Assembly (NCBI GenBank): GCA_030671065.1
Contig: DAOVAM010000005.1
Span: forward strand, 1-32,978
DNA length: 32,978 nucleotides
From: Candidatus Aminicenantota bacterium
Lineage (GTDB): Bacteria; Acidobacteriota; Aminicenantia; Aminicenantales; Aminicenantaceae
Direction of reading: 5' to 3'
Shown here: piece by piece, positions 8,582 to 29,786 of the stretch
How the letters are laid out: each line of letters starts with the position of its first letter
Position numbering within the stretch: the first letter of the stretch is position 1
Translations under genes and position numbers: made by a program
The notes under the pieces: generated by a model
Database searches by the model: none
Told to the model about the DNA's origin: nothing
The model's input: the letters and a program-made list of their open reading frames with translations, nothing else

Positions 8582-8597
8582 TTCTATTGCTCTCCTT

Positions 8598-9965: not shown

Positions 9966-10025
9966 TAAATTCCTCCATGCTGATTTATTTTCATTGCATA
10001 CTTTCTGTTTAGACGTTTAAAACGA

Positions 10026-13000
10026 CTATTCCTTCCTTAGGGCCGGGATGAGATCCTCTTTCGTCGCGAAAAACGCTGCTAAGTAGGTCCAAATGGCTCC
10101 ATTCAGCCCGACAATTATTAATACTATAAGTATAGTAAGATAAGGTATTTCTGCACCCGGTGTCAACAAGGATGGCAGAGTCGCCAGTAAAGCGGCAAGA
10201 ATCCCGTAAAAAATCCCGGCGATCAAAAGTGCCAGATGTTCGGATAAGATGATGGTTCGCACGGATTTTCTAGTGTAGCCCACAGCCCGAAGCAGTGCCA
10301 GCTCACCCAGTCGCTCCTTGATATTGCGCCAAACGACAATCCCCAAACCCACACTCCCTAATAATAGACCGAAACTTCCCAGAATCAGGAAAATGGATAA
10401 ATACGTGTTCTGAACCGCGTTAAATTCTGCCAGGCGAGTGGATGCAGGGACCAAATCCAGACCTTGATCCTGCATAGCCCAAGATAGACCTCCTGAAACT
10501 TCTTCTATTTTTTCAAAGGGGGCATCCACGAGAAAAAGCCTGTATCCGCTTATAGAGGGAAAATTTTGAATAAAGGCTCGCTCGGAGAGGATGATGTTTC
10601 CTTGAAAAATTGAGTTGGCCAACCCCCCGACGAGTTTAAGTTGAAAGGCCTCGCCCTTTTCATCCAGATAGTTCAAGGTATCCCCCACGGCCTTACCCAG
10701 TCCCCAAACGATGACAGATTGATCGGCGATAACCGGTATTGTCTTATCAGATAAATCTTGTTCGAGGACTGACCACGGATCTTCCGGGTTGACCTCATCG
10801 GTTATCGCGGTAAACGTGAAAGCGCCTCTCTTCGAAAGTTCATCTGGATCGACACCGATCAGCTGCGGGTTTGCGACACGATTGAGGTTCAAACAGCTTG
10901 CATCATCCCCTTCTTTCACGCGAAACTGGACAAAACTCATATTCTCTGCGTCTCCGCGTTCTAATCCATAAAACTGTATCCCTTTTTTGCTGTTGAGGTC
11001 ATAAAGAACAGGGATAGCGCTTTCCCCATACAGAGCAAATCCACCTGTGCCCGAATCTCTTCTCTCTGCATCTTTAAAGGCATTGATGCGGTTTGCACCC
11101 ACCGTAAAAACGATGAACAATCCGCAGGCCAGAAGCCCTATCAATGTGACACTGCGCATCCTTTTTCTCGCAGTGTTGCGAACGCCAATGTTCAAAAGAC
11201 CCAGCCGCATTCTGTTCGTGCTTTTCCCAAGTCGGAACAGCACAACATTCGTCAAAGTCATCCCGCTGACGAGAAGAAGTGAGCCGGCTGTGAAGAAAAA
11301 CGCAAAAGCATCTTCTCCTCTTCCAAAATTCGTTAGGACCAGAATAAACACAACAGCCATCACACATGAAATCCCGATGAAAAGGCTTTTCCGCGGTTTT
11401 TTCTTTCCTCTTGCCTCAATCTTTGTCAGACCTCTCTGCAAGCCGGAAATAGAGTGTGCGATTTGCCTCCTGGTCACTAACCAGATGGTGAAGAGTGCAA
11501 CGATAATGCCGCTGAATGCACCCATAAAAAGGGATGACAATTCAAAATGAATATGGAGCGCTGAGGTGCCTACAGCCCCTTGCCAGACTGTTTTTAACGC
11601 ATTGAGGATGAGTAGATTATACATGAGCCCCATAAAACTCCCCAGCAAACTGCCGATCATGACCAGCACAGCTCCTTCACGTAGAACCAACCGCCTCACC
11701 GCTTTCCTGGAGAATCCCAGGGCGAGAAACAATCCGTTTTCTTCTGATCGATTTTCTGTACTGAAAGCAAACAGTAAACTTGTCAACAGCAGCGCCGCGA
11801 TGATAATGAAGAAACTCAATCCAAGGAAAAGCTGAGAAAAATTGACAGACTGTGAGCTCGCACGGAGCCCTTCCTTTTTGACCTCCCGGAAGACAAACCC
11901 GAGACTGGCAGGATCCAAGGCCTCTTTAAAATTGCTCTCCACAACATCTTTCTTTAATCCCGAATACCGCACGGCGGTTAAATTCCCGAAGCGGTTGGCC
12001 CACATTTTTTGAGCCGCACGCAGTGTCACGAATGCTTTGGGAGTTCCCCGGAAATCGTCCCAATAGTCCTCATCTTTATCCCGGATCTTATCCAGGTCTA
12101 TTGGCATGCCGGGATTCCAATCACGGCAGTTTTCCTCACCGGATAATCCAGGAAAATCAGGCAGCAAGTCTTTATCCGCGTAAATTCCTCTCAAAGGCAC
12201 GACAGCAGCCACACGGAATTCAGAGCTCAATTCCTTCAAGTCCCGTCTTGGACCCAAAACATAATAAATCATCTGGATCTGATCACCCACACGTGCATCC
12301 AAATCCCGGGCAAGCCACGCATTGATGACGATCTCATCATCGTTCATCCCAGAAGGAATGATGGGTGTTCCTGGAGCAGAGACAAAGGAATAGGGTGTGG
12401 ATCGATTCCTAAGTTGAATCTCATTCACAAAATATGTCAGGATCGGCCTAGCTTTCTGACTGAGATTCACTGCTGCGTCGACAACAGAAGGATCCAGAAA
12501 AACACGACTCGACTTCAACTCAACAAAATTGCGTCCGGTGATTTCTCTCAACTCAAGACCGGCATCAACGAGTGTCCAAACATCTTTGACCGCTTTGTTC
12601 ACAACCTGAATGTCCAGAGGGGTGCCCGGTCTTTCTGAGATGAGCAGAACGTTAGCTCTGCGCTCAAAACCCATGTCTTGCGACAAGGCAGGCAGAGAAA
12701 CAAACACAGTGCTGGGACTGACCTGGTCGGCTTTGAGATTGAACCTCCCGAATCCAGAATCCGAAGCGATGGCCTTGACCTTGAACCGTCTGGCTATCGT
12801 GGATTCTGAATCCATGGACAGAGGTGCGTCCTTCGGCATGACATCCAGTTCCTGCATGCGGAGGACAATCTCATCATCTTCTTTGATTTCAAGACGTGTA
12901 GCGAGATACTGATTGACAATGGCCTCATCAGGCAAAATCTGACTGAAAAAATCCCTGTCGCCGCCGATTTCTCCAAAACGGGCATCCACCCCGATAACCT

Positions 13001-13319
13001 GAATGTTGTTGATCCTGCGCTGTCCACCCTCGGCTATGGCAATCCCTTTTGTTTGAAGGAGAGGAGCCACAATGGTTCCGAGTGTATTCGAAAGGTCATC
13101 TGCCATTCGAGCCTGGAAGAAACGGTCTCCCGAAGAAAGAGCGTACTCTGTGGTTCCAAGCCTATCTAATACAACCTTCTGAAGACTGTGACGAACAGAA
13201 TCACCGATGACAAGGGCGCCAACCAGAATGGCCGTGCTCACCATCGTCCCCAGGACAACCCAGAGATGGCTTTTTCGATAAAAGGCGAGGCTGCGAAGGA
13301 GCAGTTTCCAGGGATTCAT
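10026..13319 (-). CDS. FtsX/LolE-type ABC transporter permease
   Basis: 1097 aa, several hydrophobic segments, FtsX-type signatures (ERLGELALLRAVGYTRKSVRTIILSEH; SEENGLFLALGFSRKAVRRLVLREGAVL). Adjacent to an ATPase gene. Confidence 0.88.
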   Translation of the reverse strand: MNPWKLLLRSLAFYRKSHLWVVLGTMVSTAILVGALVIGDSVRHSLQKVVLDRLGTTEYALSSGDRFFQARMADDLSNTLGTIVAPLLQTKGIAIAEGGQRRINNIQVIGVDARFGEIGGDRDFFSQILPDEAIVNQYLATRLEIKEDDEIVLRMQELDVMPKDAPLSMDSESTIARRFKVKAIASDSGFGRFNLKADQVSPSTVFVSLPALSQDMGFERRANVLLISERPGTPLDIQVVNKAVKDVWTLVDAGLELREITGRNFVELKSSRVFLDPSVVDAAVNLSQKARPILTYFVNEIQLRNRSTPYSFVSAPGTPIIPSGMNDDEIVINAWLARDLDARVGDQIQMIYYVLGPRRDLKELSSEFRVAAVVPLRGIYADKDLLPDFPGLSGEENCRDWNPGMPIDLDKIRDKDEDYWDDFRGTPKAFVTLRAAQKMWANRFGNLTAVRYSGLKKDVVESNFKEALDPASLGFVFREVKKEGLRASSQSVNFSQLFLGLSFFIIIAALLLTSLLFAFSTENRSEENGLFLALGFSRKAVRRLVLREGAVLVMIGSLLGSFMGLMYNLLILNALKTVWQGAVGTSALHIHFELSSLFMGAFSGIIVALFTIWLVTRRQIAHSISGLQRGLTKIEARGKKKPRKSLFIGISCVMAVVFILVLTNFGRGEDAFAFFFTAGSLLLVSGMTLTNVVLFRLGKSTNRMRLGLLNIGVRNTARKRMRSVTLIGLLACGLFIVFTVGANRINAFKDAERRDSGTGGFALYGESAIPVLYDLNSKKGIQFYGLERGDAENMSFVQFRVKEGDDASCLNLNRVANPQLIGVDPDELSKRGAFTFTAITDEVNPEDPWSVLEQDLSDKTIPVIADQSVIVWGLGKAVGDTLNYLDEKGEAFQLKLVGGLANSIFQGNIILSERAFIQNFPSISGYRLFLVDAPFEKIEEVSGGLSWAMQDQGLDLVPASTRLAEFNAVQNTYLSIFLILGSFGLLLGSVGLGIVVWRNIKERLGELALLRAVGYTRKSVRTIILSEHLALLIAGIFYGILAALLATLPSLLTPGAEIPYLTILIVLIIVGLNGAIWTYLAAFFATKEDLIPALRKE

Positions 13320-13324
13320 TGATT

Positions 13325-14008
13325 CTAAGAATTCTCCAGTTTTCCGTCCCGGAGCTTGTACACTTTGTCCATGAGCCGGGCAAGCTCCAACGAGTGAGTC
13401 ACAACAATCAGCGCCATGCCCTCCTCTTTGTTTAATTGAAGTAAGAGTTGACCAAGGTTTTCCGAGGATTCCCTGTCGAGAGAACCGGTGGGCTCATCTG
13501 CCAAGATAAGCTTCGGCGTGTTGATCAGGGCTCTTACGACCGCCACACGCTGCCGCTCACCCCCGGACAGTTGAGCAGGAAAGTGATAGAAGTGTTTTTC
13601 AAGTCCCACTTTCTCCAATAATTCCTTCGCCCGGATCCTCACATTTTCATCCTCTCTATTCAAACCGAGAGGAATCGTTGGAATCAAAACATTCTCTAAA
13701 ACCGTGCACTGAGGCAGCAAATGGTGGAGTTGAAATACAAAACCTATATCCTGATTCCTGATTTTTGATAGCTCTGAATCTTCGAGGTCGGCTAAATTTT
13801 TTCCAGTCAAAGTGACTATCCCGGAGGTCGGCCGATCAAGGGCACCAATAATGTTGAGAAGAGTGCTTTTTCCGGACCCCGAAGGCCCCACAACAGCAAT
13901 GGATTCTCCTTGATTGACCTGAAGGGAAATATCTCTCAGGACGATCGCCTGACCTTCCCCGGACGGGATTTCATATGTCTTGGAAATATTTTTGAGTTCA
14001 AGCAACAT
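13325..14008 (-). CDS. LolD/MacB-type ABC transporter ATP-binding protein
   Basis: Walker A GPSGSGKST, signature LSGGERQRVAVVRAL, Walker B LILADEPTG. The start at 14008 (MLLELKNISKTYE) fits the family; the longer ORF to 14134 reads through the upstream GT gene in another frame. Confidence 0.92.
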   Translation of the reverse strand: MLLELKNISKTYEIPSGEGQAIVLRDISLQVNQGESIAVVGPSGSGKSTLLNIIGALDRPTSGIVTLTGKNLADLEDSELSKIRNQDIGFVFQLHHLLPQCTVLENVLIPTIPLGLNREDENVRIRAKELLEKVGLEKHFYHFPAQLSGGERQRVAVVRALINTPKLILADEPTGSLDRESSENLGQLLLQLNKEEGMALIVVTHSLELARLMDKVYKLRDGKLENS

Positions 14009-15284
14009 CGTTATATATCCCCGCAATATTTTTTGCCATTTGCTCCATGGAAAACCGTTCCAACACGACTTTCCTTCCCTGTTCGCCCAGCTTTCTGGCT
14101 TTCTCCGGATCGGCGAGCAGCGAGGCAATGGCATTCGTCAGTTCTATACTGGTATTCGGCTCATAAATGATCCCTCCGTTCGTCACCTTCACAAATTCCG
14201 GATAACTGCCCACATTGGGCTGCACAACCGGAACACCAGCTGCCAAGGCTTCGACCTGATAGGCACCGAAGGCCTCACCGGTGGGAACAGGGACAGAAAG
14301 GAGTGTGAGTGACTTGAGAAATTCAATGCGATTTTCTTTGTTGAAGCTTTTGAATACTCTGATATCATTTCCAAAACCGCGTTTTGATATCTTTTTTAAT
14401 AATTCACTCACAAAACGTTTATCATCACTTGAATAACCGCCAGTCATGTGTAATTTCAAGTCTTTAAAGGGGCTGTTTTCTTTCAATCGTATGAAAGCGT
14501 CGACTAGTATCCCGAGACCGAAATATTCTGACATCCTGCATAAATATCCGATCACTGGAGGATTGGATGGGAGTGAAGATCTTTCATACCCGTTGAGATC
14601 AATGCCTCCATAAACTGCCTTAATTCTATCAACGGGTATTTTGAGCTGTTTTCGAGATTTATTTAAATAATAGTCACTGGCAGTTATGAAAAGATCAACA
14701 TCGGTTGCTTTTTCAGCCATTAAATTCCATATTTTCCTCTGATAATGATCGTTCATTTGATCGATCCACTCGTTTTCATCCTGAAGTGAACAGATAACTC
14801 TTGTTCTCAGATCATTTTTAAGCCTGTGGACAAGTCCAAGCAACAGAGCATTAGAAAGATGAACGATATCCGGATTGATCTCTTTCCGAAGGTATTTGAT
14901 AAGATGATCCAATTCAGTGGCTTGTCGACCTTTTTCACCTTGCAACATAGAAATTGTCATTTCCTCGAGTCCCGTGGCACGTGTTGAACCGGATTTTTTT
15001 GCTGCCATATTCAACAATGGATAAAAATCGAAGATGCGTTCCAACCACACAGGAGCATGTCTGTAAAAAGGCAATTTTTCTTTGAGATAAACATTAATTG
15101 CACCATAAAAAACTGGCGTATCGGCTATTTTTCCATTCACTTCCAGATTTGATGGAAGATACATGGGAACCTTACGCACATCATGTCCGAGGACAAGAAG
15201 TGATTTGAGCAACTCGTCATCTCGAAAACAGTTTTGACAGTAAAATGTCCCGCCTGCTCCAGGAGTCACATACACTATCTTCAT
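13998..15284 (-). CDS. Glycosyltransferase family 4-type protein
   Basis: GT-B features: N-terminal YVTPGAGGTFYCQNCFRDDELLKSLLVLGHDV, and C-terminal PVPTGEAFGAYQVEALAAGVPVVQPNVGSYPEFV with terminal KARKLGEQGRKVVLERFSME. Confidence 0.87.
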   Translation of the reverse strand: MKIVYVTPGAGGTFYCQNCFRDDELLKSLLVLGHDVRKVPMYLPSNLEVNGKIADTPVFYGAINVYLKEKLPFYRHAPVWLERIFDFYPLLNMAAKKSGSTRATGLEEMTISMLQGEKGRQATELDHLIKYLRKEINPDIVHLSNALLLGLVHRLKNDLRTRVICSLQDENEWIDQMNDHYQRKIWNLMAEKATDVDLFITASDYYLNKSRKQLKIPVDRIKAVYGGIDLNGYERSSLPSNPPVIGYLCRMSEYFGLGILVDAFIRLKENSPFKDLKLHMTGGYSSDDKRFVSELLKKISKRGFGNDIRVFKSFNKENRIEFLKSLTLLSVPVPTGEAFGAYQVEALAAGVPVVQPNVGSYPEFVKVTNGGIIYEPNTSIELTNAIASLLADPEKARKLGEQGRKVVLERFSMEQMAKNIAGIYNDVA

Positions 15285-16441
15285 GATCCTTCTCCAAATG
15301 CATACACTCGCCCATCTTCAGCACCGATGACAATGAATCCCCCTGCAACAGCAGGACATCCAATAATGGCCGCGCCGATCTCATAAGACCATATTTCCTT
15401 TCCGTTCTTTAAATCTACCACATAGAGCCTGCCATCTATAGATCCGGTTATGACTCTGTTACCGGCAATAACCGGTGAACCGTCTATCTCATCGCGCGTC
15501 TGAAAATCCCAGATCTTTTCCCCTGTTTTTTGGTTGACACAGTGTAAATAACCATCGCGTGAACCGATCGCTACACGCCCTTCACCCACGGCAGGGGAGG
15601 AAAAAAAGGGTCCGGGATGCTCCTTGTCCTCGTATTCCCAAACGATTCGTTGCTCCGCCAAATCGATACAGATCAATCTATTCCCATAATGTCCAAGATA
15701 CGCTCTGTTGGAGACGAGAGCGGCTGAACCCGGAATGTAAGAGCCCGCCAAGACTTCCCCTCTCTTTGTTCCATCAGAGACCGAAATAATGTGAAGCAGT
15801 TCATCGCATCCTCCAAACACAACATGAATCCCGTCTGTCGAAGGAGCTCCGTTGATATAGTTTTCGGTTTCGTAGGCCCATTTCAGTTCTCCAGTCAAGG
15901 CCTCAAAACAGTACACTCGGTTGTCATAGCATCCCACGAACACAGAAATCTCTTTATCTCTGGAGGCTCTCGCCCAGTTGGCTGAGCCGTAGATGGAATT
16001 GTCACATTTGTATTTCCATCTGAGTTGTCCGGTATGGGCATCCAGGGAAAAAAAATTACCGCTCAAGTTTCCGATATAAACCACATCATCCAGCAGGAGC
16101 GGGGAGGCCTCGATGTCATCTTCTGTGTCAAACTCCCAGATCTTGCGACCATCTGATAGATCCACAGAATAGACTTTCCCATCTGTCGAACCGATGTACA
16201 CACGCCCAAAACCGAGAACCGGAGATGAAACAATTTCCGACCCAGTCTGAAACGACCAGAGTAAAGCCAATTCATCAGGAATTCTATCCTTTGCTACTCC
16301 AGAAAGAGTCGGATCACCTCGAAAAATGGGCCAATTCGCTGCCTCAACATTCAAAATCTTCTTTTCCACATCTTTCTTGGCGCAAGAAGCTGCGAGAACA
16401 GGAAGCAGCAACGCAATTATTGTTATTCTAAATTTCCTCAT
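15281..16441 (-). CDS. PQQ-like beta-propeller lipoprotein
   Basis: Lipobox LAASC in MRKFRITIIALLLPVLAASCAKKD; NWPIFRGDPTLSG; regular blades (VYSVDLSDGRKIWEF, LYVVDLKNGKEIWSY). 4-bp overlap with the GT gene. Confidence 0.9.
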   Translation of the reverse strand: MRKFRITIIALLLPVLAASCAKKDVEKKILNVEAANWPIFRGDPTLSGVAKDRIPDELALLWSFQTGSEIVSSPVLGFGRVYIGSTDGKVYSVDLSDGRKIWEFDTEDDIEASPLLLDDVVYIGNLSGNFFSLDAHTGQLRWKYKCDNSIYGSANWARASRDKEISVFVGCYDNRVYCFEALTGELKWAYETENYINGAPSTDGIHVVFGGCDELLHIISVSDGTKRGEVLAGSYIPGSAALVSNRAYLGHYGNRLICIDLAEQRIVWEYEDKEHPGPFFSSPAVGEGRVAIGSRDGYLHCVNQKTGEKIWDFQTRDEIDGSPVIAGNRVITGSIDGRLYVVDLKNGKEIWSYEIGAAIIGCPAVAGGFIVIGAEDGRVYAFGEGS

Positions 16442-16482: not shown

Positions 16483-18084
16483 TCACTTATTCGGAGATGA
16501 TTTTTCCTGATTCCGGTCTCGCCAGGAAAGTGCGGCTGTGGGACAGGCTGTGACACATTCCCCGGCCACATTGATCAACCCCTGGCTGAGAGGTTCTCCG
16601 AATGGGATCTCAACACGAACGTTGAATCCTCTGTCAATAAAAGTCAAACCGAGTTTTTCTCCGGCTTTCTTTGTGATTTGTACGCACAAACCGCATTTGA
16701 TGCATTTTCCAGGCTCATAAATGACAAGCTCATGCTGTATATTTCTTTGAAATCCCTTTCTCTCCACAAAGGAAAAACGGCGTTGGTTGGCCTGGTATTC
16801 TTCCGAATACTTCCGCAATTTGCAGGAATCTGGCTTGCGGCAGTCACAGCCAAAGCAACGCGATGATTCTCGGACAGCTTCCTCATCCGAATAGCCAGTT
16901 TTCAACCCGCCCACAGGAACAATATGTTCATGCTTTTCGGCCTCCTTCATGAATTCGTTGGCTTCGTCTTTACGAATTTTTCCGAGGATGGAATGGAAGC
17001 GTGGTTTTGGACCCTTAGCAGTTTTGTTCTCTAAAAACTGATTCACAGAATAAGCCATGCTTTTCCCATGAGCTGCTGCCCGTATCGCCATGCGCGCTTC
17101 TGAAACAGCATTCCCGCCCGCAAAAACTCCGGGAACACTGGTCTCGAAAGTCTTTCTGTTGATCACTACACCCTTGGAGGTATGCTCAACTCCAGAATCT
17201 TCAAACACCTTGGGATCTATTTTCCCCACAGCCAGGACAAGAGCATCGTAGCCAGTACGCAATTCATCCCATCCCAAATCCTCACCCAGTGAGCGTTCCA
17301 TCCGGAACTCGGCTCCCAACCCAGAAATGCGGTCAATTTCTGAATCCAGGACAGATTTGGGTAATTCTTTATCCGGAACTCCATACCGAAGCATGCCACC
17401 CGGATGGGGATTTTGATCATAGACGTGGCAAGCGTGGCCATCTTGAAGGAGATAGTAGGCTGCAGAGAGTCCGGCCGGCCCAGCCCCGACGACAGCCAAT
17501 TTTTTTCCAGAATTCGGCTTCACGGCTGGATGATAAGGGGAGTCTTGAGCCAGGTCAACATCTGCCACATATCTTTTCAAAGAACAGATCCCTACAGGAT
17601 TGTCAAAATTTCTGCGATGACATCCTTTTTCACAGGGAGCAGGACAGATGCGCCCCAAGACCGCAGGCAGGGCGATGTCTCTCTTCACAGTGGCGATCGC
17701 ATCCACGAGTCGATTATCTTCAATTTGCCTGATCATCTGCGGAATGTTCATGTGAGCCGGGCAGGCCCGATGGCACGGGGCCTCACAATCACCGACATGC
17801 TCACTCAATAGAAAATCCAGAGCATCTTTCCGGGCTACTTTGACTTTTTCATTTTCTGTCTCGATCCGCATTCCCTCAGCAACAGTGGCCGAGCAGGATG
17901 GGATCAGTCGGTCCGAATTGATTTCATGAACGACGCAGATCATACAGGACGTGAATCTCTCGTACCCGTTTAAATAACACAGTGTGGGAATGTGAATGTT
18001 CAATTTCCTGGCAGCTTCAAAAACAGTACTGTTTTCATTGACACTCACGTCACGATTGTCTATGGAAACACTTATCAATTTCAT
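16483..18084 (-). CDS. 2Fe-2S / GltD-like FAD-NAD(P) oxidoreductase with a C-terminal ferredoxin-like domain
   Basis: NuoG-like N-terminal 2Fe-2S region (IPTLCYLNGYERFTSCMICVVHE), GltD-like CEAPCHRACPAHMNIPQ and ICPAPCEKGCHR, dinucleotide-binding AVVGAGPAGLSAAYYL, CIKCGLC...CVTACP. The start at 18084 (MKLISVSIDNRDV) gives a 4-bp overlap with the upstream gene. Confidence 0.88.
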   Translation of the reverse strand: MKLISVSIDNRDVSVNENSTVFEAARKLNIHIPTLCYLNGYERFTSCMICVVHEINSDRLIPSCSATVAEGMRIETENEKVKVARKDALDFLLSEHVGDCEAPCHRACPAHMNIPQMIRQIEDNRLVDAIATVKRDIALPAVLGRICPAPCEKGCHRRNFDNPVGICSLKRYVADVDLAQDSPYHPAVKPNSGKKLAVVGAGPAGLSAAYYLLQDGHACHVYDQNPHPGGMLRYGVPDKELPKSVLDSEIDRISGLGAEFRMERSLGEDLGWDELRTGYDALVLAVGKIDPKVFEDSGVEHTSKGVVINRKTFETSVPGVFAGGNAVSEARMAIRAAAHGKSMAYSVNQFLENKTAKGPKPRFHSILGKIRKDEANEFMKEAEKHEHIVPVGGLKTGYSDEEAVRESSRCFGCDCRKPDSCKLRKYSEEYQANQRRFSFVERKGFQRNIQHELVIYEPGKCIKCGLCVQITKKAGEKLGLTFIDRGFNVRVEIPFGEPLSQGLINVAGECVTACPTAALSWRDRNQEKSSPNK

Positions 18085-20435
18085 GTGATTTTTACAGATT
18101 CGGTCGGGCACCCCTGCCTGCACGTATCGCATTTTGTACACTCATTCTGGTCTATGATGTGCCTCTGATACGGCGTGACCGAAATCGCTCCTGTCGGACA
18201 ATTCTGGGCACAGATCGTGCAGCCGATGCACGTTTCGTCAATCCAGTAGGTGATGAGGTCTTTACACCGCTTCGCAGGGCACGTTCCCTGCAAATGCGCT
18301 TCATACTCGTCCCGGAAATACGTTAAAGTCGTCAACACGGGATTCGGGGCTGTCTTTCCCAAACCACAGAGACTGCCCTGTTGAGTCCTGTGTGCGATCT
18401 CTTCCAGCTTTTCCAGGTCCTCTCTCTTTCCATCCCCGGCACAGAGTTTCTCGAGAATGCGGAGCATGTGACGGGTTCCTACGCGGCAAAACGTGCATTT
18501 CCCACAGGATTGATTTTGCGTAAACGAAAGAAAATAGCGTGCGATATCCACCATGCAGTCTGTTTCATCCAGGATCAATAAGCCACCAGAGCCCATCATA
18601 GCGCCGACCTCGGTCAGGTCTTCGTAATCGACTCGGGTGTGCGCCAGCTCCGCCGGTATGCAACCGCCGGAGGGGCCTCCGATCTGAACAGCTTTGAACT
18701 GTTTTCCGTTTTCGATGCCACCGCCGATATCCTCGACGATCTCCTGAATCGTGATTCCCATCGGGACCTCTATAAGCCCGCCACGGGCGATTTTCCCTGC
18801 CAGGGAGAAGACCTTTGTCCCCTTGCTTTTGCTGGTTCCCAGTTCCGCCAAAGCCTCGGGTCCATGCCGAATGATCCAGGGCACCGTGGCAAATGTTTCA
18901 CAATTGCTCACGAGTGTCGAATGGCCCCAGAGCCCCTTTTGCGCAGGATAGGGAGGGCGATAGCTGGGATTGCCCCGCCGTCCTTCTATAGACGCGATCA
19001 AAGCTGTCTCTTCCCCACAGACAAAGGCACCCGCCCCTTCCAGCATGTTCAATTTCAAAGAAAATCCTTTTCTCAGGATGTTCTCCCCTAAAAGCCCTGA
19101 TTCCAGGCACTGCTTGAGTGCATCCTTGACCCGCTGGACGGCGAGTGGATACTCCGCACGAATGTAAAAGTACCCTTCATGAGCACCCACGGCAAAAGCG
19201 GCAATGATCATGCCCTCGATGACGCGAAAAGGATAGGACTCCAGGATCATTCTATCCATGAATGCCCCCGGGTCACCCTCATCGCCATTGCAGATGATAA
19301 ACTTCACAGTATCATCCGATTGACGAACGATCTGCCACTTCTTTCCCGCCGGATATCCAGCTCCCCCTCTTCCTCTTAAACCACTGGCTTTGATTTGGGC
19401 AATAATCTCATCCGGAGAGGAGTCCGCAAGGCACCGTTCTAAGGCTTCAAAACCTCCCTTTGAACGGTATTCTTGAAGGTCGAGGGGATCGATCTGACCA
19501 GAATGTTCAGTGGCAATATGTTTCTGTCTTCCCAGAAAGGCCTGGATATTCGGGTCTCGCACATGAAGAGGATGTCGTGTGAATCCGTTGGAATGAGGGT
19601 CATCCAGGATATTTTCAATGAGGCTGAATGCCGCATTCTTTATTCTCTGGCGTAAAGTCTTGGGCTTGTAGTGCCTGAGTATGATGCGTTTCACATCCTC
19701 CGGCTGCACGCTGTCGTAAAGGACCGGATCCTGGTCTGGGAGATTCAATTCTAAAAGAGGTGTGCGGTGACACATTCCCACACATCCCACTCTTTTCACC
19801 TGGGCCTGGACACCCGTTTCCTCCAGGGTTTGTTCAAGAGCGTGTTGCACTCGACGGCTTCCACTGGCCACACAGCAGGAACCCAGTCCGATCTTTATCT
19901 CCCCTGCCTCTTCAGGTAGAATTTTTCGAGCTTCGGACACAGCCATTCTCCGGCCCTGGTGGAGGAGGAAGTCCTGGAGAATATTCGCCACTCCAGCCGT
20001 CTTCACATGTCCGTATGTCATACCGTCTATCTGAACCACAGGAGCAATGGTGCAGCAGCCAAGGCACGCAATTTTTTGAACAGTGAATCTGGCCTCAGGG
20101 TCTGTATCCTGGCCTTCCTGTATATGCAGTTCGCGGCAGAAGGCATCATACACCAGTTCGGAACCCTTGACATGGCAAGCTGTGCCTGTACAGACTCGGA
20201 TGATGTGCTGGCCGATCGGAGTGTGACGGAATTGAGAGTAAAACGTCGAAACACCCATTATGGATGCAGGCGTTATATCCGTGATCTCACAGACTCTTCG
20301 CAGCGCTGTTTCTGGAAGATAGTTGTATCTGTTCTGGACGGCATGCAGGATCGGGATAATATTGCCGGCGTTTGGACCGATTTCACTGATGATCTGGTCG
20401 ACGAAAGAATGGATGCTGTCCTTGTCCATATTCAT
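18081..20435 (-). CDS. Fused NuoE/HydC + NuoF/HydB-like NAD(P)H-linked flavo-iron-sulfur subunit
   Basis: NuoE-type 2Fe-2S (VCTGTACHVKG...IACLGCC), a second thioredoxin-like 2Fe-2S region (GLGSCCVASGS...VGCVGMCHRTP), NuoF GLRGRGGAGYPAGKKW and SCGKCTFCRVGT, C-terminal 2x[4Fe-4S] CIGCTICAQNCP / CTKCDTCRQGCP. Confidence 0.92.
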   Translation of the reverse strand: MNMDKDSIHSFVDQIISEIGPNAGNIIPILHAVQNRYNYLPETALRRVCEITDITPASIMGVSTFYSQFRHTPIGQHIIRVCTGTACHVKGSELVYDAFCRELHIQEGQDTDPEARFTVQKIACLGCCTIAPVVQIDGMTYGHVKTAGVANILQDFLLHQGRRMAVSEARKILPEEAGEIKIGLGSCCVASGSRRVQHALEQTLEETGVQAQVKRVGCVGMCHRTPLLELNLPDQDPVLYDSVQPEDVKRIILRHYKPKTLRQRIKNAAFSLIENILDDPHSNGFTRHPLHVRDPNIQAFLGRQKHIATEHSGQIDPLDLQEYRSKGGFEALERCLADSSPDEIIAQIKASGLRGRGGAGYPAGKKWQIVRQSDDTVKFIICNGDEGDPGAFMDRMILESYPFRVIEGMIIAAFAVGAHEGYFYIRAEYPLAVQRVKDALKQCLESGLLGENILRKGFSLKLNMLEGAGAFVCGEETALIASIEGRRGNPSYRPPYPAQKGLWGHSTLVSNCETFATVPWIIRHGPEALAELGTSKSKGTKVFSLAGKIARGGLIEVPMGITIQEIVEDIGGGIENGKQFKAVQIGGPSGGCIPAELAHTRVDYEDLTEVGAMMGSGGLLILDETDCMVDIARYFLSFTQNQSCGKCTFCRVGTRHMLRILEKLCAGDGKREDLEKLEEIAHRTQQGSLCGLGKTAPNPVLTTLTYFRDEYEAHLQGTCPAKRCKDLITYWIDETCIGCTICAQNCPTGAISVTPYQRHIIDQNECTKCDTCRQGCPTESVKIT

Positions 20436-20442
20436 GGGTGTA

Positions 20443-22158
20443 TTAATCTCCGATACAAAACAAGTGTTTCTCTCCGCGAATAAAAATCCGACCGTGCATG
20501 AAGGCGGGGATTGTCATTGCATTCTCACCGAGTTCATTTCGGCTGATGAGACGGAAATCCTTATCCGCCTTGAAAACGTACATGACACCGGACATATCCA
20601 TGAGGTAAACATTATCCCCCACTAAGATTGGGGATGAGTAAAACCCATCATCAAACTCCTGAATCCAAAATCTCTCTCCGGTCTTACTGTCAAAACACGT
20701 CACCGTGCCGTAACTCGCAGCCATGATGACAATATCTTTTGTAGCGAGAGGACTGGCTACTTCAGAGAGGTCATCGATGTATTCCCATGCCACTTCAGGA
20801 ATCTCTCCGAGTTGGATCCCGACAAGACGGGCATAATCGTTCACCACATAAACCATACCGTCCGAATATGCAGGCGAGGGGGCAATCTCCCCCTGCATGC
20901 ATCTCACACGCCACAATTCCTGTCCAGTTTGTGGGTCGTGCGACATCACGAACGGATTGGAATTGAGGATGAGCTCGGTCCGGCTTCCCGTATTCACCAG
21001 TATGGGCGAGGCCCACGAGATCTCCACATCTCGTGGTTGATCGTATGCCAAATCGCCTGAGCGAGTTCTCAGTGCCAGAAGCCGTCCCCCTGTGTTCTGG
21101 TCGAACGGGACCAACAGTAAATCTCTATACGTGATCAGCGAAGAGGCATGTCCGTAATGATTATCCGGCATCCCAAGGTTTTTCGTCCAGATTCGTTTTC
21201 CCTCAAAATCGAGGCAGGCGATATCGCCGGTCGCAAACAGCGCAAAAACTCGCTGCCCGTCTGTCGTCATCGTGGGGGCCGCGTATCCAGTATCCTCAGT
21301 GACCTGGGGCCGCTGGTCAGGAGACCCAGGAATGTTATTCAATTCTGTCTGCCAGAGAATCTCTCCTGATTCGGTATCGACACAATACACGACCTGTGTG
21401 TTCCTATCCGCGCCCGAAAGAAAAATTCTATTCCCCCAAACAATCGGAGAATTAAAGCCGCTCGTTGGGATCGGGATTTTCCAAATGATATTTTTTCCGG
21501 ATGAACCATCCCATTCTGTGGATACATCCGTGTGAAAGGCTATACCGATGCCTTCGGGGCCACGGAACCCAGGCCAGTTGTTCCTTATCTCATCTACACC
21601 AGGAAAATCGGTGGCGGCCCGACTTCCTTCTGCTTTGACGATGCCAACGTTCTTCAACTCTGTCTGGAATAGGATGCCGAGAATGAATGCCAGGACAAAC
21701 AAACCTAATCCGCCATAAAGAATATATCTCCGAGATAACAGCTTGCTCTTCCAAGTGTCATCCGGCTCCGCGCTTTTGCTCAAATCAGGCAATCGGGACT
21801 GTAAAGAGCTCATGTATTTCAAGGCCAGCAGAAGAACAAGGATAAACGCAAACAGAAGATAGCTTCCTGTCCGGATCTGCCATTGATGAGTGAAATAGGC
21901 CTTTCGTGCCAGCAGATCGAGAGCCCGGATCTGCTCTTTTAACGCTGTGTCTTCCGGATTCTCTTGTAATCGAGTCATCAACTGAGAAATGGCTTTGCTG
22001 TTGAGCGGGTCGACAGACTTTATTTGGATGTAGTTGGCAATCATCAAGATGCTGAGTATTCCAGCAAAAATTCCTGCAATCCAGGCAACTCTTTTGGTAA
22101 TGTTATACCCCATTCTCGAGGAACTCTTTGTTGTGTTATCTCTGTTTTCAGGACTCAT
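20443..22158 (-). CDS. Membrane-anchored PQQ-like beta-propeller protein (about three N-terminal TM helices)
   Basis: Hydrophobic segments AWIAGIFAGILSILMIANYI, TGSYLLFAFILVLLLALKYM, YILYGGLGLFVLAFILGILF, then NNWPGFRGPEGIGIAF...NIIWKIPIPTSGFNSPIVWGNRIFLSG and propeller blades. Confidence 0.88.
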   Translation of the reverse strand: MSPENRDNTTKSSSRMGYNITKRVAWIAGIFAGILSILMIANYIQIKSVDPLNSKAISQLMTRLQENPEDTALKEQIRALDLLARKAYFTHQWQIRTGSYLLFAFILVLLLALKYMSSLQSRLPDLSKSAEPDDTWKSKLLSRRYILYGGLGLFVLAFILGILFQTELKNVGIVKAEGSRAATDFPGVDEIRNNWPGFRGPEGIGIAFHTDVSTEWDGSSGKNIIWKIPIPTSGFNSPIVWGNRIFLSGADRNTQVVYCVDTESGEILWQTELNNIPGSPDQRPQVTEDTGYAAPTMTTDGQRVFALFATGDIACLDFEGKRIWTKNLGMPDNHYGHASSLITYRDLLLVPFDQNTGGRLLALRTRSGDLAYDQPRDVEISWASPILVNTGSRTELILNSNPFVMSHDPQTGQELWRVRCMQGEIAPSPAYSDGMVYVVNDYARLVGIQLGEIPEVAWEYIDDLSEVASPLATKDIVIMAASYGTVTCFDSKTGERFWIQEFDDGFYSSPILVGDNVYLMDMSGVMYVFKADKDFRLISRNELGENAMTIPAFMHGRIFIRGEKHLFCIGD

Positions 22159-22162
22159 TTTT

Positions 22163-23527
22163 TTATGCTCTAAACTGTTTTGGTTTCACTTCTCTGGATC
22201 CCATTTTGTCTGCTTCTTCCGGGGTAATTATACCTAAGCGGACCTGCTCATACGGACAGTACGCAAAACAGCGCCCGCAGCTCAAACATTTCCCCTTGTC
22301 CACGTCATACTCAATCTGTCTTTTTCTCATAAACAGGCCGATGAGCTTCAGACAGAGGACCAATCCAATGAATCCACCGACAATCCATCCTCCCACTTTG
22401 AAATTGTGCTGAATGGAGTTCGCTTCAGCGAATAATTCTTCTGTCGGTTTTCCCGATGCCCGGAACGCCTTTGTTGCATTTGTCATCTCTGTTCTTTTTC
22501 CAGAATTTTCAAGAAGGATCTCTTCGGCCAGAGAGACGGTTGCATGTCCACGAGAAAGAGGTGCGTACAATCGCGAACCGACCCAACCGCTGCCCAGCAG
22601 CACAACAGGCAACACGATGAATAAAACGGCAAGTCGCTTGACGTCAACCTGTTTTGTTTCCAGAGGGACATCTTCATCCGGTTTCTTTATCGCCCCGAAC
22701 GGACAGGATTCTTCACACAGCCGGCAGTTGTTGCATTCATCCGGAGTGATCCTGACATGCTTCTTGGACAGACGCGACAGCCAATTCAGCAGCACTCCAT
22801 ACGGGCATAGATACCGGCAGTAGGGACGCGCCACGACTGTCCCGAGCAAGAGCATGGACATCCCCAAGATGACCATGTTAAAATCCGCACCAAAACGGAA
22901 GAAGCCGATGAAAGGATCGTATTGACAGATGATAAAGCCCGCTCCAGTGGCCGCAAACAATACCGCCAGTCCTAAATAAATGTAAGGAAGAACACCTAAA
23001 ACATTCTCCAGCCGCGACGGGACTTGAGTGGGCTTCAGAACGACGGCATCCTGAATCGCTCCGAGGGGACAGACAGCAGCACAAAAAGTGCGTCCGTAAA
23101 ACAATGTAAAAACAAGAGGGAGAATAAAAAATACGATGACGGTTAGAGGAATGGCGTAGGCCGGATTGAACACCACGTAGCTGACATTCTGTATCGCCCC
23201 GATCGAACAGACGCATCCTTTTCTGAAAAACCCGAAATAGGCGAGTGAAAACACCATCAGCAGGAAGATGTTCCTGCGCGACCGCTGTTTGTGGGCAAAA
23301 TAACTGGCTAAAGAAAGAGCCGCAACAAGAACAAATATGTCGATGTATTCCAGAGCCGTTGCTCGGGGCGTGGGCGTGAGCAAATCGGGTCGTGTATAGT
23401 CAGTTTGAAAATCAGGCTTGGGAAATCGTTCCGGTACCTGAGACATGCAAAACAGAGGAAAAACAAACAGGAAGGCAAAGATAAAAATCTTCCCCCTGTG
23501 AATTCTGCTTTGGATCATATTTCTCAA
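22163..23527 (-). CDS. NapH/NosR-like membrane 4Fe-4S polyferredoxin
   Basis: Multiple TM segments with FCAAVCPLGAIQD and YCRYLCPYGVLLNW motifs plus an extra CVCSIGAIQN; ferredoxin motifs CNNCRLCEESCP and CLSCGRCFAYCP. Confidence 0.88.
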   Translation of the reverse strand: MRNMIQSRIHRGKIFIFAFLFVFPLFCMSQVPERFPKPDFQTDYTRPDLLTPTPRATALEYIDIFVLVAALSLASYFAHKQRSRRNIFLLMVFSLAYFGFFRKGCVCSIGAIQNVSYVVFNPAYAIPLTVIVFFILPLVFTLFYGRTFCAAVCPLGAIQDAVVLKPTQVPSRLENVLGVLPYIYLGLAVLFAATGAGFIICQYDPFIGFFRFGADFNMVILGMSMLLLGTVVARPYCRYLCPYGVLLNWLSRLSKKHVRITPDECNNCRLCEESCPFGAIKKPDEDVPLETKQVDVKRLAVLFIVLPVVLLGSGWVGSRLYAPLSRGHATVSLAEEILLENSGKRTEMTNATKAFRASGKPTEELFAEANSIQHNFKVGGWIVGGFIGLVLCLKLIGLFMRKRQIEYDVDKGKCLSCGRCFAYCPYEQVRLGIITPEEADKMGSREVKPKQFRA

Positions 23528-23531
23528 ATCA

Positions 23532-24131
23532 TTAACTCTTCAGAAATTTATTACTCTCATCTCCCTTGAGAATATAGGGCTGGCTGGCCGGCACCCGCTT
23601 CCAGGCTTGGGAAGGGCATCTTCGGGCGATGGAGCATTGGTTGCAGTTCAGACAGCGATCATGCCGGTTCTGCAGATACAAAGATCCGTTTCCGAACGAA
23701 TTGCAGCCCTTCGCACATTTGCCGCACCCGATGCACAATTTCTCATCGATCGTGTATTCAAAATAGGGATCTTCGACAAAAGTCCTTTTTATCGCGCCTG
23801 AAGGACAGAGCTGGCTTTCCGCCCCGGTATCCCTCACTCTGGCCCCTGGCTGCAAATACCCGCTACACAGGTCGCAGTACCCGCACATCGAGTAAGAATG
23901 GACACATTTTACGGCGGAATGGGGCAAAACACAGTTGACCGAACATTTTTCACATTGGATACAGATATTGGGATCCAACTGCCAGACCATCTCTTCAGAG
24001 GAGGACTTGCTGAACAATATCCCTCCAATCCCCCCGATTGTGAGACCCACAACAGTGTGCACGCTTCTCCGGATGAAATCCCGTCGCTTGATCGGTATTT
24101 TCAAAGTCTTACCGGACATCGTCTCCTCCAC
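23532..24131 (-). CDS. Tat-leader periplasmic-type 4Fe-4S polyferredoxin
   Basis: RRDFIRRSVHTVVGLTIGGIGGILF leader; Cys clusters CIQCEKCSVNC, CGYCDLC...CPSGAIKR, CIGCGKCAKGC, CLNCNQCSIARRCP. The start could also be 24119 (MSGKTLK). Confidence 0.85.
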   Translation of the reverse strand: MEETMSGKTLKIPIKRRDFIRRSVHTVVGLTIGGIGGILFSKSSSEEMVWQLDPNICIQCEKCSVNCVLPHSAVKCVHSYSMCGYCDLCSGYLQPGARVRDTGAESQLCPSGAIKRTFVEDPYFEYTIDEKLCIGCGKCAKGCNSFGNGSLYLQNRHDRCLNCNQCSIARRCPSQAWKRVPASQPYILKGDESNKFLKS

Positions 24132-24390
24132 TGTTCATCCCTGAGGATTGAAGTCGAGAATCGCGTTCTTTCTGCTTCACATCGAGAGCTTTAGGTTCCC
24201 TGCAGTCACGGAGTCTCGAACATCCTCTGCAGGGCAGATCCACCAGACAGGATGATTCCTTTCCGGAGTTCGAATACCCTTTCCAGCCAAGAAACAATCC
24301 CGTGAATGCCAAGCCGCTCAGCAGAACAGTCCGCATCCCATCCCTCAAAAAATCTCGCCTGTTTTTTGTCTTCTGCATACTCTGTATCAT
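24109..24390 (-). CDS. Small Tat-leader protein with a four-Cys motif (CX5CX2CX5C)
   Basis: 93 aa: NRRDFLRDGMRTVLLSGLAFTGLFLGW leader, then SSCLVDLPCRGCSRLRDCREPKAL. Sits 14 bp after the NHL gene and overlaps the polyferredoxin gene, as expected for an operon member. Confidence 0.7.
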   Translation of the reverse strand: MIQSMQKTKNRRDFLRDGMRTVLLSGLAFTGLFLGWKGYSNSGKESSCLVDLPCRGCSRLRDCREPKALDVKQKERDSRLQSSGMNSGGDDVR

Positions 24391-24404
24391 GCTGTACTCC
24401 TGTA

Positions 24405-25394
24405 TTAAAGCCTCTTTTTCTCAAATATTCGCACGAGTTTTTGGAACGGATCCAACACAAAAATCTTCTGAGAGGAGTCTACGGCTAAATCCAGGCCGAC
24501 TGTTCCTTCGATGAATTGATCTGGTCCAGCCACGACAGACACCAGCTCTCCCAGTCGATTGGAAACTTTGACTCTGGCTATACCCTTTTCACTGGTGACG
24601 AAGGAACCTTCCTCCAGAATGGTAAAATGTGACGGATTGCAGCATCCGCAAAATTTTTCCATATCCATGCCAAACTCACCCCATGATGTCCTGAAATTCC
24701 CATCATGAGTATAATTTTCTAGCGAATGACGTCCGGTGTTGGCAGCCCAAAGAAATCCATCCGGATCGATGGCCACATCGAAAAACGGGCTTGGGATAAT
24801 GAATCCGGGGATATCTTTAGCGTCATTCTTCTCCCCAATTCTGATCAATCGGTTTCCGGATTTATCGAATTTCCAGACAATTAAATTCCCCGCATCTGCA
24901 ACGAAGACAGAGTTTTTAGAAACAGCGATCGAGGTGATGATGGCTTCTTCTCCCAACGATTCCCAATTCGCTTTTTTTTCGCCATCTCGATCATAAACCT
25001 CAACATGGTCCTCCATCCCGAGATATACGTCCTGGTTCCCATCTACCGTCAGACAGCGGGCGGTTCCAACTGAAGATATTTCAGACTGAAGGATCCCATT
25101 CCTATCAAAAACAAGAACGGAATCATCTCCAGATACGTAAATTCGATCATCCGGTCCGATGGCAATTCCGTAAACATTCTGTAATTCGATCCGGATCCGG
25201 CCCACCTCAGAATAATGCATTAAGCTGGCATCAATCTTTTTAAAATTCTCTAAGTTGTATTCGAATGGATTCTCCTGATTCCTGTTTGAATTCTCGGATA
25301 TCGCCTGATATCCAAAATATAAAATCCCAGCCACCGAGATTGAAATGACTGCGGCAATGATTAACCGATCCTTCCTCCCTTTGAATGAAAACAT
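24405..25394 (-). CDS. Membrane-anchored NHL-repeat beta-propeller protein with CGCC motif
   Basis: N-terminal TM (RLIIAAVISISVAGILYFGYQAI), NHL-like repeats (GIAIGPDDRIYVSGDDSVLVFDRNG; DVAIDPDGFLWAANTGRHSLENYTHDG), MEKFCGCCNPSHFTIL motif. Confidence 0.82.
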   Translation of the reverse strand: MFSFKGRKDRLIIAAVISISVAGILYFGYQAISENSNRNQENPFEYNLENFKKIDASLMHYSEVGRIRIELQNVYGIAIGPDDRIYVSGDDSVLVFDRNGILQSEISSVGTARCLTVDGNQDVYLGMEDHVEVYDRDGEKKANWESLGEEAIITSIAVSKNSVFVADAGNLIVWKFDKSGNRLIRIGEKNDAKDIPGFIIPSPFFDVAIDPDGFLWAANTGRHSLENYTHDGNFRTSWGEFGMDMEKFCGCCNPSHFTILEEGSFVTSEKGIARVKVSNRLGELVSVVAGPDQFIEGTVGLDLAVDSSQKIFVLDPFQKLVRIFEKKRL

Positions 25395-25409: not shown

Positions 25410-26843
25410 TTAGGATTGGGATCTCAAATCGATACAGACCAACCTGCGCGAGTCGCGAGCAAGCAGCCTGCCGTTTACTATTGCAAACGGGCCCCAGGCA
25501 TCAACTCCATCCAGGATCTTTGCCTGTGCAAGTTGAACATATTCTTCTGGACTGGCTTTTAATACGGTTAAAACTCCATCGTCGCTTAAAACAAAGAATT
25601 TATCATCCGCCACGATATAGGGCCCCAAGCCAAAGCGATTTGTCTTCCCACTGGACCAGACAATTTGACTGCAGTCATCCGGATGATAGCAGACAAATTG
25701 ATTCCGAAGAGGCCCGGCGTCCTTGGGCAAAATTGAAAAAAGATGTCCTTTATAAAAAATCGGCGTCTGCTGCTCCGATGCCATCCCTTCTTCAGGCTTT
25801 AATGTTTGAAGAGACTCAGCTGAAAATGATCCGTTATCCGTTTTTATTCTCAACATCAGGCTCCCATTACCGTATCCCGCTGTGAGAAATATTCTGCCGT
25901 CTCCCAAATGGACAGGAGAAGGAGCAATGACATTTCGATTCCACAGGTTGGTCTCGAACACGATCTCTCCAGCTGTCTCCTTTTCAGCTGAGACTCCAAT
26001 GACTCCCCCGATTGCGCAGTACACATACATTTTTCTTCCAAAAACAGAAAACCGCATGACAGACGAGTGAGACATTTTCCAGTTATTCGGATTGGGAACT
26101 TCCCATGTCACCTCTCCAGTCTCGCAATCGATCCCGATGATCAAAGATTTTCCTCCGACAGCAATAACAGCCAAGGAATCGTCAACGAGTGGACACTGAC
26201 CTGTGTACCATAAGGGCACCTCAGCTCCATACTCATTCACCAGATCCATCCCCCATTTAAAATCACCGGAATGTGCATCCACGCACATGACATGGCATTT
26301 CGGGCCGATTGTCACCACATATTTATCCGATACAGCTGGAATAGTCCGCGACATCCCGTGATTCCTTTTCACATACAATTCATATCCTCTGCGCCAAATT
26401 TCTCTTCCATCGTTCAGAGAAAAACAACGCAAAATATCCGCTCGTTTCTCCTCGTCATAATCCAAAAGATACACGCGGCCGTTCGAAACGACCGGACCGG
26501 CATGGCCTTCTCCCAGGTCCACGGACCACAGAATGTTCGGCCCTTCATCACCCCAACTCTCAACAAGCGGGATATTTTCTTTGCTGATATTATCGAAATC
26601 AGCGCCTCTGAATCTTGGCCAGCTTCCCTGAATTTCAGAGGGAAGCCCGTCAAAACTCGCGAACATAGCGCCCAAATCGACTTCTTCCGTTCGACTGGAA
26701 AAGCCCTCTGGCCTGCTGTCCCGACCCGGAATACTCTCCACAAAATCATTGACCGGATTATAGAAAAGCCACCAACTCAGAAACACCAATCCAATAAAGG
26801 TGGCACTGACAAAAGTGGTGAGGTTGACTATCTTTTCATTCAT
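25410..26843 (-). CDS. Membrane-anchored PQQ-like beta-propeller protein
   Basis: N-terminal TM (TFVSATFIGLVFLSWWLFY), GSWPRFRGADFDNIS...NILWSVDLGEGHAGPVVSNGRVYLLDYDEEKRADILRCFSLNDGREIW. Confidence 0.85.
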   Translation of the reverse strand: MNEKIVNLTTFVSATFIGLVFLSWWLFYNPVNDFVESIPGRDSRPEGFSSRTEEVDLGAMFASFDGLPSEIQGSWPRFRGADFDNISKENIPLVESWGDEGPNILWSVDLGEGHAGPVVSNGRVYLLDYDEEKRADILRCFSLNDGREIWRRGYELYVKRNHGMSRTIPAVSDKYVVTIGPKCHVMCVDAHSGDFKWGMDLVNEYGAEVPLWYTGQCPLVDDSLAVIAVGGKSLIIGIDCETGEVTWEVPNPNNWKMSHSSVMRFSVFGRKMYVYCAIGGVIGVSAEKETAGEIVFETNLWNRNVIAPSPVHLGDGRIFLTAGYGNGSLMLRIKTDNGSFSAESLQTLKPEEGMASEQQTPIFYKGHLFSILPKDAGPLRNQFVCYHPDDCSQIVWSSGKTNRFGLGPYIVADDKFFVLSDDGVLTVLKASPEEYVQLAQAKILDGVDAWGPFAIVNGRLLARDSRRLVCIDLRSQS

Positions 26844-26866: not shown

Positions 26867-27106
26867 TCAGAGCAGCCCCGTGAGATAAACACGGTCTGAC
26901 GTCACGGCCGGAGAAGAATAGCCCTCTCCGAGTCCTTCCGCAGACCAGAAGAGCTTCGGTCCTCCATCAGGCCATTTTTTCAAAAGGCTTTCTTCCGGAT
27001 AGATTCCATCTCGCTTTGGCCCCCGCCATTGCGAGTCGATTTGTCCGAATGCAAATGAAAAATTAAGAAGGAGTAACAGCCACATCAAAGCGAAAAATAT
27101 CTTCAT
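26867..27106 (-). pseudogene. Truncated PQQ-like beta-propeller gene (N-terminal 79 aa only)
   Basis: Signal peptide MKIFFALMWLLLLLNFSFAFG plus SQWRGPKRDGIYPEESLLKKWPDGGPKLFWSAEGLGEGYSSPAVTSDRVYLTGLL then stop. The motif matches the start of the neighbouring full-length propellers, but only about one blade is present. Confidence 0.7.
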
Positions 27107-28835: not shown

Positions 28836-29786
28836 TTAATAGAATTTTCTTAAATTCATTCCTGTATAGAGCTGACTCACCTGGTCTGCATAGCCGTTGA
28901 ACATGGGAGTCTTTCTCCGTCCTTCCTCACCAATGCGGCGCTCAGTGGCTTGAGTCCAGCGCGGATGATCCACATTCGGGTTCACATTGCCAAAAAAACC
29001 ATATTCTTCTGGTTTTTTCCTCACCCAGCTGGACTTTGGCATTTTCTGTACGAACCTGACTTTGACTGTGGATTTGATGCTCTTGAATCCATACTTCCAG
29101 GGAATCACAAGTCTTATAGGAGCCCCATTCTGATTGGGGAGCAACTCATCATACATCCCAACAGCCACAAGTGCTAAGGGGTGCATAGCCTCATCCATCC
29201 GGAGTCCTTCCACATAGGGCCAATCTAAAACAGGCGCACTCAGTCCAGGCATTTGATCGGGATCATACAGAGTCGTGAACTCAACATATTTGGCTTTTGA
29301 TGTAGGCTCGCACTTTTTGATGAATCCTGCGAGAGAAAACCCGATCCAGGGAATCACCATGGACCATGCTTCTACACAACGCCAGCGGTAAACCCGTTCC
29401 TCGAGCGGAAACATATGGATGAGCTCTTCGATATCGAATTTCTTTGGTTGCTTCACCTCTCCTTCTACAGAAAGTGTCCATGGGCGTGTGCGAAACGACT
29501 GGCTGAGTTTTTTCACAGAGCGTTTTCCAGTGGAAAATTCGTAGAAGTTTGTGTACGATGTTGCCTCGTCAAAGGAAGTGACTTTCTCTTTAACCATGTG
29601 CTCTCCCCGTTTGGCGACTTTGAGTTTCTGTTTGGATTTTTCTTCAGTTTCCTGAAATGAGGATGAGTGGATAAGTCCGGACGTAACCAGTGCGGTTGAG
29701 CCAACAATAAACTGCCGGCGATTCATGTAAAGCTTTTTATCGGTAATCTCCGATGATTTTATACACGGAGGCTTTTTCACTAACAC
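28836..29786 (-). CDS. msrP: Protein-methionine-sulfoxide reductase catalytic subunit (MsrP/YedY-like), Tat leader
   Basis: MLVKKPPCIKSSEITDKKLYMNRRQFIVGSTALVTSG leader typical of MsrP; YRWRCVEAWSMVIPWIGF molybdopterin-Cys region; VIPWKYGFKSIKSTVKVRFV. Confidence 0.9.
   Translation of the reverse strand: MLVKKPPCIKSSEITDKKLYMNRRQFIVGSTALVTSGLIHSSSFQETEEKSKQKLKVAKRGEHMVKEKVTSFDEATSYTNFYEFSTGKRSVKKLSQSFRTRPWTLSVEGEVKQPKKFDIEELIHMFPLEERVYRWRCVEAWSMVIPWIGFSLAGFIKKCEPTSKAKYVEFTTLYDPDQMPGLSAPVLDWPYVEGLRMDEAMHPLALVAVGMYDELLPNQNGAPIRLVIPWKYGFKSIKSTVKVRFVQKMPKSSWVRKKPEEYGFFGNVNPNVDHPRWTQATERRIGEEGRRKTPMFNGYADQVSQLYTGMNLRKFY

Follow-up and report, generated by a model that had tools for sequence, protein, structure and literature searches.

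A 32,978-nucleotide stretch of Candidatus Aminicenantota contig DAOVAM010000005.1 (hereafter the window) carries, between the genes for an NHL beta-propeller and a polyferredoxin with a twin-arginine (Tat) leader, a 93-aa open reading frame (P0001). The question raised by this locus is whether so small a frame is a gene and, if so, what its product does among redox proteins. The product is read as an undescribed subunit of a large electron-transfer gene cluster that recurs in many anaerobic bacterial phyla, and its Cys probably form a small Fe-S (or thiol) site at the periplasmic side of the inner membrane. Re-reading of the minus strand reproduced exactly the original description of the frame, namely 93 residues with a twin-arginine leader, a hydrophobic stretch, a CX5CX2CX5C motif and a polar tail. 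The leader sequence NRRDFLRDG (residues 10-18) runs into the hydrophobic helix, after which SSCLVDLPCRGCSRLRDC holds C48, C54, C57 and C63 in the CX5CX2CX5C arrangement, followed by the polar tail (Table 1).

Several lines of evidence indicate that the frame is a gene under selection. The sequence CAGGAGTACAGC precedes its ATG and contains a strong ribosome-binding site (AGGAG, 6 nt from the start codon), and ATGTCCGGTAA contains both the polyferredoxin ATG and the small-gene TAA, with GGAGGAG immediately 5' of the polyferredoxin ATG. Compared with 8 relatives, the small gene had dN values of 0.26-0.73 and dS values of 1.8-2.9 or saturated, giving a dN/dS of about 0.13-0.30 where measurable, indicative of purifying selection, and its third codon positions were the most diverged. 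Good homologues of P0001 were found in 8 other genomes of the source organism's own family (E 3e-7 or better; weak matches with E above about 0.001 were dropped). As a lone query, without a profile, P0001 also retrieved ORFs at the equivalent place in loci from Planctomycetota, KSB1 and Bacteroidota, as well as a Verrucomicrobia ORF directly upstream of the NHL gene. A spurious or non-functional ORF, for which the small size, the variable polar tail and the lack of a database family could speak, is refuted in practice by the conservation of sequence and position across phyla, dN far below dS, single-copy linkage to the cluster, a ribosome-binding site and coupling to the next gene. The same evidence bears out the earlier view that this is a genuine small gene.

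Table 1. Features of the redox cluster in the window and of the small Cys protein gene within it
Feature	Position	Strand	Remarks
FtsX-domain permease	10026..13319	(-)	1097 aa; downstream extension
ABC ATPase	13325..14134	(-)	downstream extension
Group 1 glycosyltransferase	13998..15284	(-)	downstream extension
PQQ-type beta-propeller (PQQ_A)	15281..16441	(-)	
NuoG-N/GltD-like subunit	16483..18141	(-)	StnC/NfnA-like
NuoE/NuoF fusion	18081..20435	(-)	HydB/StnB-like NAD(H) module
PQQ-type beta-propeller (PQQ_B)	20443..22158	(-)	N-terminal membrane helices
NapH-like protein	22163..23527	(-)	integral membrane Fe-S protein
Polyferredoxin	23532..24119	(-)	Tat leader; four [4Fe-4S] motifs and an additional Cys; NapG-like role
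Overlap of small-gene 3' end and polyferredoxin start	24109..24119	(-)	11 nt; translational coupling likely
Small Cys protein gene (P0001)	24109..24390 (stop codon included)	(-)	93 aa; same-position homologues
Cys motif C48-X5-C54-X2-C57-X5-C63	24202..24249	(-)	in the family set A2, C54 and C57 invariant, C63 at least 90% conserved
Membrane helix, residues 11-39	24274..24360	(-)	helical in the AlphaFold model, with pLDDT about 90-95 for residues 11-30
Twin-arginine leader RRDFL, residues 11-15	24346..24360	(-)	in A2, conservation of R11, R12 and R20 is at least 90%
Shine-Dalgarno-like AGGAGT	24396..24401	(-)	about 5-6 nt 5' of the small-gene ATG; from sequence
NHL six-bladed beta-propeller	24405..25394	(-)	N-terminal membrane helix; conserved GCCNP Cys pair
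PQQ-type beta-propeller (PQQ_C)	25410..26843	(-)	conserved upstream of NHL

When 84,980 species genomes were searched using the polyferredoxin as query, 80 loci were obtained, and 85 cluster copies were placed on a polyferredoxin/NapH tree. The small gene was present in 54 of these 85 copies (40 of type A and 14 of type B), 18 had an NHL protein with a C-terminal Cys tail, and 13 had neither gene nor tail (L052, L053, L059, L039-L043, L064 and L097, plus the contig-edge or ambiguous cases L065, L076 and L092, which were counted here; the L065 genome has a strong family match on a different contig). Since some clusters lack both, the small protein is not strictly essential to the cluster. The gene sits between NHL and the polyferredoxin in 52 of the 85 copies and directly upstream of NHL in two Verrucomicrobia loci (L063, L105). 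Same-position homologues occur in Aminicenantes/Acidobacteriota, KSB1, Calditrichota, Latescibacterota, Planctomycetota, Verrucomicrobiota, Lentisphaerota and Bacteroidota.

The small gene is confined to the cluster and present as a single copy per genome. A family-alignment search of 41 whole genomes returned at most one true member in each, almost all additional matches being the leader of the adjacent polyferredoxin; the exception was one Verrucomicrobia copy on a separate contig, which may be a contig-edge case. Median distances were 2 nt from NHL to the small gene and -1 nt from the small gene to the polyferredoxin (the latter over 48 loci), values biased toward short distances because the start nearest to the small-gene stop was chosen where several were possible. 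This tight linkage agrees with the proposal that the protein is a partner of the adjacent Tat polyferredoxin, and applies likewise to the NHL propeller gene.

Within the family, a CX2CX5C core was found in 52 of the 53 sequences examined (40 of type A, 13 of type B). Type A members mostly carry a fourth Cys upstream of the core (37/40), at a spacing of X3 (4), X4 (3), X5 (21) or X8 (9); it is missing from L049, L102 and L066. Type B forms one Bacteroidota clade, and in the 13 sequences read the fourth Cys lies downstream, 5 residues away in 12 and 7 in one. The arginine pair followed by a hydrophobic helix was present in 38 of the 40 type A proteins and a true RR leader in none of the 13 type B proteins, the two pattern matches (L094, L101) having RR only inside FLRRLM. 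Conservation of the Cys holds for the core but not universally for the first Cys, and the Tat leader holds for type A but not for the type B clade, so that Tat export is unlikely to be universal in the family, judging from the leaders. Homologues with conserved Cys and RR do occur at equivalent loci, and the original description thereby withstands the refutation set for it, namely their absence.

P0001 had no match in Pfam or NCBIfam, in keeping with the original prediction, which recognised no family; Herpes, Bunya and defensin names among the weak family matches of its relatives are due to chance. Small accessory subunits encoded next to a redox or metal system, Cys proteins among them, have precedents (FeoC, PF12669, TIGR02811). 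The tail motif of TIGR02811 (formate dehydrogenase region TAT target) is not known to be Cys-based. TIGR02811 resembles the present family in being a tiny Tat-leader protein beside a redox complex, but the cluster has no formate dehydrogenase, and only 1 of 38 members matched, at E 0.0013 and plausibly via the leader, P0001 itself giving no match, which does not indicate membership.

The CX4CX2CX5C motif of Escherichia coli FeoC forms a [4Fe-4S] cluster (PMC8749426). FeoC is likewise a small accessory protein with a four-Cys motif, and its exact spacing occurs in three family members, that of the window protein differing by one residue. However, FeoC acts in ferrous iron uptake and is soluble, with a winged-helix fold, whereas the small protein has a membrane helix and no winged helix; FeoC was absent from the Pfam matches of A2 members, and feo genes were absent from the cluster, the neighbours in the compared loci being NHL and the polyferredoxin. 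PF12669 (FeoB_associated) is a small Cys protein of the Feo system, encoded separately or as a C-terminal domain of FeoB (PMC8749426). Both have one membrane helix with a short Cys tail after it, and both occur either separately or at the C-terminus of a partner (compare the NHL tail), but the small protein differs in Cys spacing and gene context; 2 of 38 members matched, with a best E of 0.015, which is no significant membership, and P0001 did not match.

The P0001 leader has no AxA-type cleavage site and is probably an uncleaved membrane anchor. Together with the confident helix over residues 11-39, the missing cleavage motif suggests a membrane-anchored subunit with a periplasmic Cys tail. 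In the AlphaFold model only the helix is confident, the Cys region (pLDDT about 50) being disordered without a ligand, and the original prediction of a small folded protein is thus unsupported for the apo chain alone. Such an undefined tail would be as expected for a site ordered by a metal or a partner.

Taken together, the FeoC-like spacing, a leader of Tat type and a neighbouring ferredoxin would make an Fe-S site the most likely reading of the Cys motif. With roughly even confidence, the small protein is taken to be a dedicated accessory subunit with one FeoC-like Fe-S cluster at the periplasmic face, between the polyferredoxin and NHL. Its site would be loaded in the cytoplasm before insertion via Tat, and the protein would stay anchored by its own leader and hold one small FeoC-like [4Fe-4S] cluster in the periplasm. 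There it would either dock the polyferredoxin, with its four clusters, to the NHL propeller or carry electrons between them. A cytoplasmic NAD(P)H dehydrogenase module of the Stn/HydBC type would supply these electrons through the NapH-like membrane protein; domain content suggests the order NAD(P)H module, NapH-like protein, polyferredoxin, small protein/NHL. Evidence against this explanation comes from the three type A members lacking the upstream fourth Cys, from the predicted disorder of the Cys region without a ligand, and from type B, which keeps four Cys without RR and is hard to reconcile with loading before export. If type B uses Sec, a preloaded cluster would be unlikely there, and a thiol role would gain weight.

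The NHL protein offers a further view of the site. In gut-type Bacteroidales without the small gene, it ends in CX2CX3CP[LMI] in 18 of 18 loci (e.g. CGQCTVDCPLKV), and a Tat-like leader is clear in 16 of these proteins and weaker in two (NKREFLK, ERRGYLK). The C-terminal Cys tail was found in none of the 45 loci with the small gene, where 40 of the 45 NHL proteins have no RR by pattern; of the remaining five, two (L062, L096) seem to have been flagged through artefacts of the upstream frame. The reading suggested by these sequences is that the Cys site moved from a separate subunit to the propeller and the export route moved along with it. The tail forms make up one clade on the polyferredoxin/NapH tree and hence represent a single evolutionary event, one observation rather than 18. 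The arrangement supports, without proving, a partnership between the small protein and NHL.

The NHL fold is that of an ordinary six-bladed propeller, in which a vicinal pair (GCCNP, residues 250-254, window 24633-24647) retains both Cys in all 79 NHL copies compared and is a possible redox-active site. This pair would suit a thiol-disulfide relay, in which the small-protein Cys act as redox thiols between the polyferredoxin and the GCCNP pair or a periplasmic substrate, and so would the invariant CXXC core, the disorder of the apo region in the model and the retention of Cys in type B proteins exported without RR. Such a relay is nevertheless considered unlikely: a fixed CX2CX5C core and a total of three to four Cys are more typical of ligands than of a relay, the NHL proteins bearing the Cys tail have a Tat-like leader, and a ferredoxin-to-dithiol step normally requires a special cluster.

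The Cys could also serve a structural purpose, binding a metal such as Zn or forming disulfides, while the helix anchors the polyferredoxin/NHL pair to the membrane or stabilises the two during export. A docking or assembly factor of this kind would be in accordance with the tight gene coupling, with the helix being the sole confidently predicted structure and with the accessory nature of small Feo-system Cys proteins, PF12669 included (PMC8749426). It is rated improbable, as the polyferredoxin and NHL each have a membrane helix or Tat leader of their own, making an extra anchor look redundant, and conservation within the small protein is higher at the Cys than elsewhere.

The members without a fourth Cys (L049, L102, L066) would be accommodated if the small protein, through its three invariant Cys, and a partner, through one Cys, jointly held an Fe-S cluster at their interface. 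One candidate is the 17th Cys of the polyferredoxin (C67, trimmed-alignment numbering), which is unpaired and lies outside the four cluster motifs; it is retained by 70 of the 72 clusters that have the gene or the NHL tail, and of the 13 with neither, 7 have lost it or could not be scored. This association was not relied on: its raw Fisher p of about 1e-5 is not significant once relatedness is counted, it rests on about two independent losses, and L054 and L102 have the small gene without C67. As most members also have a fourth Cys of their own, a shared cluster is judged very improbable.

The proteins encoded around the small gene define a recurring gene order when the loci are compared with the window proteins (PQQ_C, NHL, small gene, polyferredoxin, NapH-like, PQQ_B, NuoEF, GltD-like, PQQ_A). 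The best solved-structure matches of NuoEF and the GltD-like subunit were NfnABC, Stn and HydB chains. NuoEF is similar to StnB and the NuoG-N/GltD-like subunit to StnC/NfnA of the electron-bifurcating Stn/NfnABC and HydABC complexes (Stn is described in PMC10482914). The GltD-like subunit of the window, at 521-552 aa, is nevertheless far from the about 1172 aa of StnC, and the module is here combined with transmembrane and periplasmic Fe-S proteins, unlike in Stn and HydABC. The pairing of a NapH-like membrane protein with a Tat polyferredoxin recalls NapG/NapH and MauM/MauN, to which the cluster adds an NAD(P)H module, beta-propellers and the small Cys protein; NapG/NapH equivalog scores were not reached by the NapH-like protein (54 bits vs 213 and 234) or the polyferredoxin (17.6 vs 269). 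A small subunit of the methylamine-dehydrogenase or quinohemoprotein type, suggested by the propeller context, was rejected, the PQQ and NHL proteins being generic propellers and the small protein having no conserved Trp. No description of the cluster was found in the open-access literature searched, and the cluster as a whole appears undescribed there.

Window positions 7241-15284 form a conserved downstream extension with the glycosyltransferase, ABC ATPase, FtsX permease and PQQ propellers. Among 12 sampled genomes, ten had both the ABC ATPase and FtsX, one more had FtsX alone, and nine had the glycosyltransferase. More tentatively, and with less than even confidence, the small protein may be the terminal, periplasm-facing Fe-S subunit of an undescribed transmembrane electron-transfer machine that delivers low-potential electrons to the cell envelope. 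This machine would consist of an NAD(P)H bifurcation-type module, a NapH-like conduit, the Tat polyferredoxin, the small Fe-S anchor and the NHL propeller, and its genes would be joined with those for PQQ-type propellers, a glycosyltransferase and an ABC/FtsX permease. Such electron delivery would extend over many anaerobic phyla and take in the gut Bacteroidales.

What was an overlooked 93-aa ORF is now a defined protein family whose metal or thiol site can be put to the test, and its occurrence as a separate gene or as a propeller tail points directly at an interaction partner. The protein marks a large conserved redox cluster that extends from uncultured Aminicenantes to cultured gut Bacteroidota (Parabacteroides). 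Among culturable hosts, Perlabentimonas gracilis and Oligosphaera ethanolica have the separate gene and Parabacteroides the tail form. The system is thereby open to genetics, including the destination and the acceptor of the NAD(P)H electrons that anaerobes move across the inner membrane.

Other observations concern individual genes of the cluster and its flanks. In gut Bacteroidales (e.g. L120:14092-14778, L122:14024-14623) the GltD-like subunit is about 200 aa long and comprises the NuoG-N-type Fer2/Fer4 part only, the NADPH-binding part appearing to be lost. At window positions 26867-27106, a 79-aa stub with a PQQ-propeller-like start looks like a truncated copy, a full-length propeller lying near there in relatives. 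An MsrP-type molybdoenzyme gene (457 bits, cut-off 207) adjoins the cluster at 28836-29786 and was not found in the flanks of related loci. Locus L064, without the small gene, encodes a different small membrane Cys protein (CGGTSCCGQC; L064:2102-2437) directly upstream of PQQ_C. Finally, in two Acidobacteriota genomes of one genus (L041:1717, L043:1711), an in-frame TGA replaces the codon of a [4Fe-4S] ligand Cys of the polyferredoxin, CGYCxLC becoming CGY-TGA-MLC; a hairpin lies just downstream, selB is present in the genome and the relative L039 has Cys at this position, making the TGA a candidate selenocysteine that may act as an Fe-S ligand.
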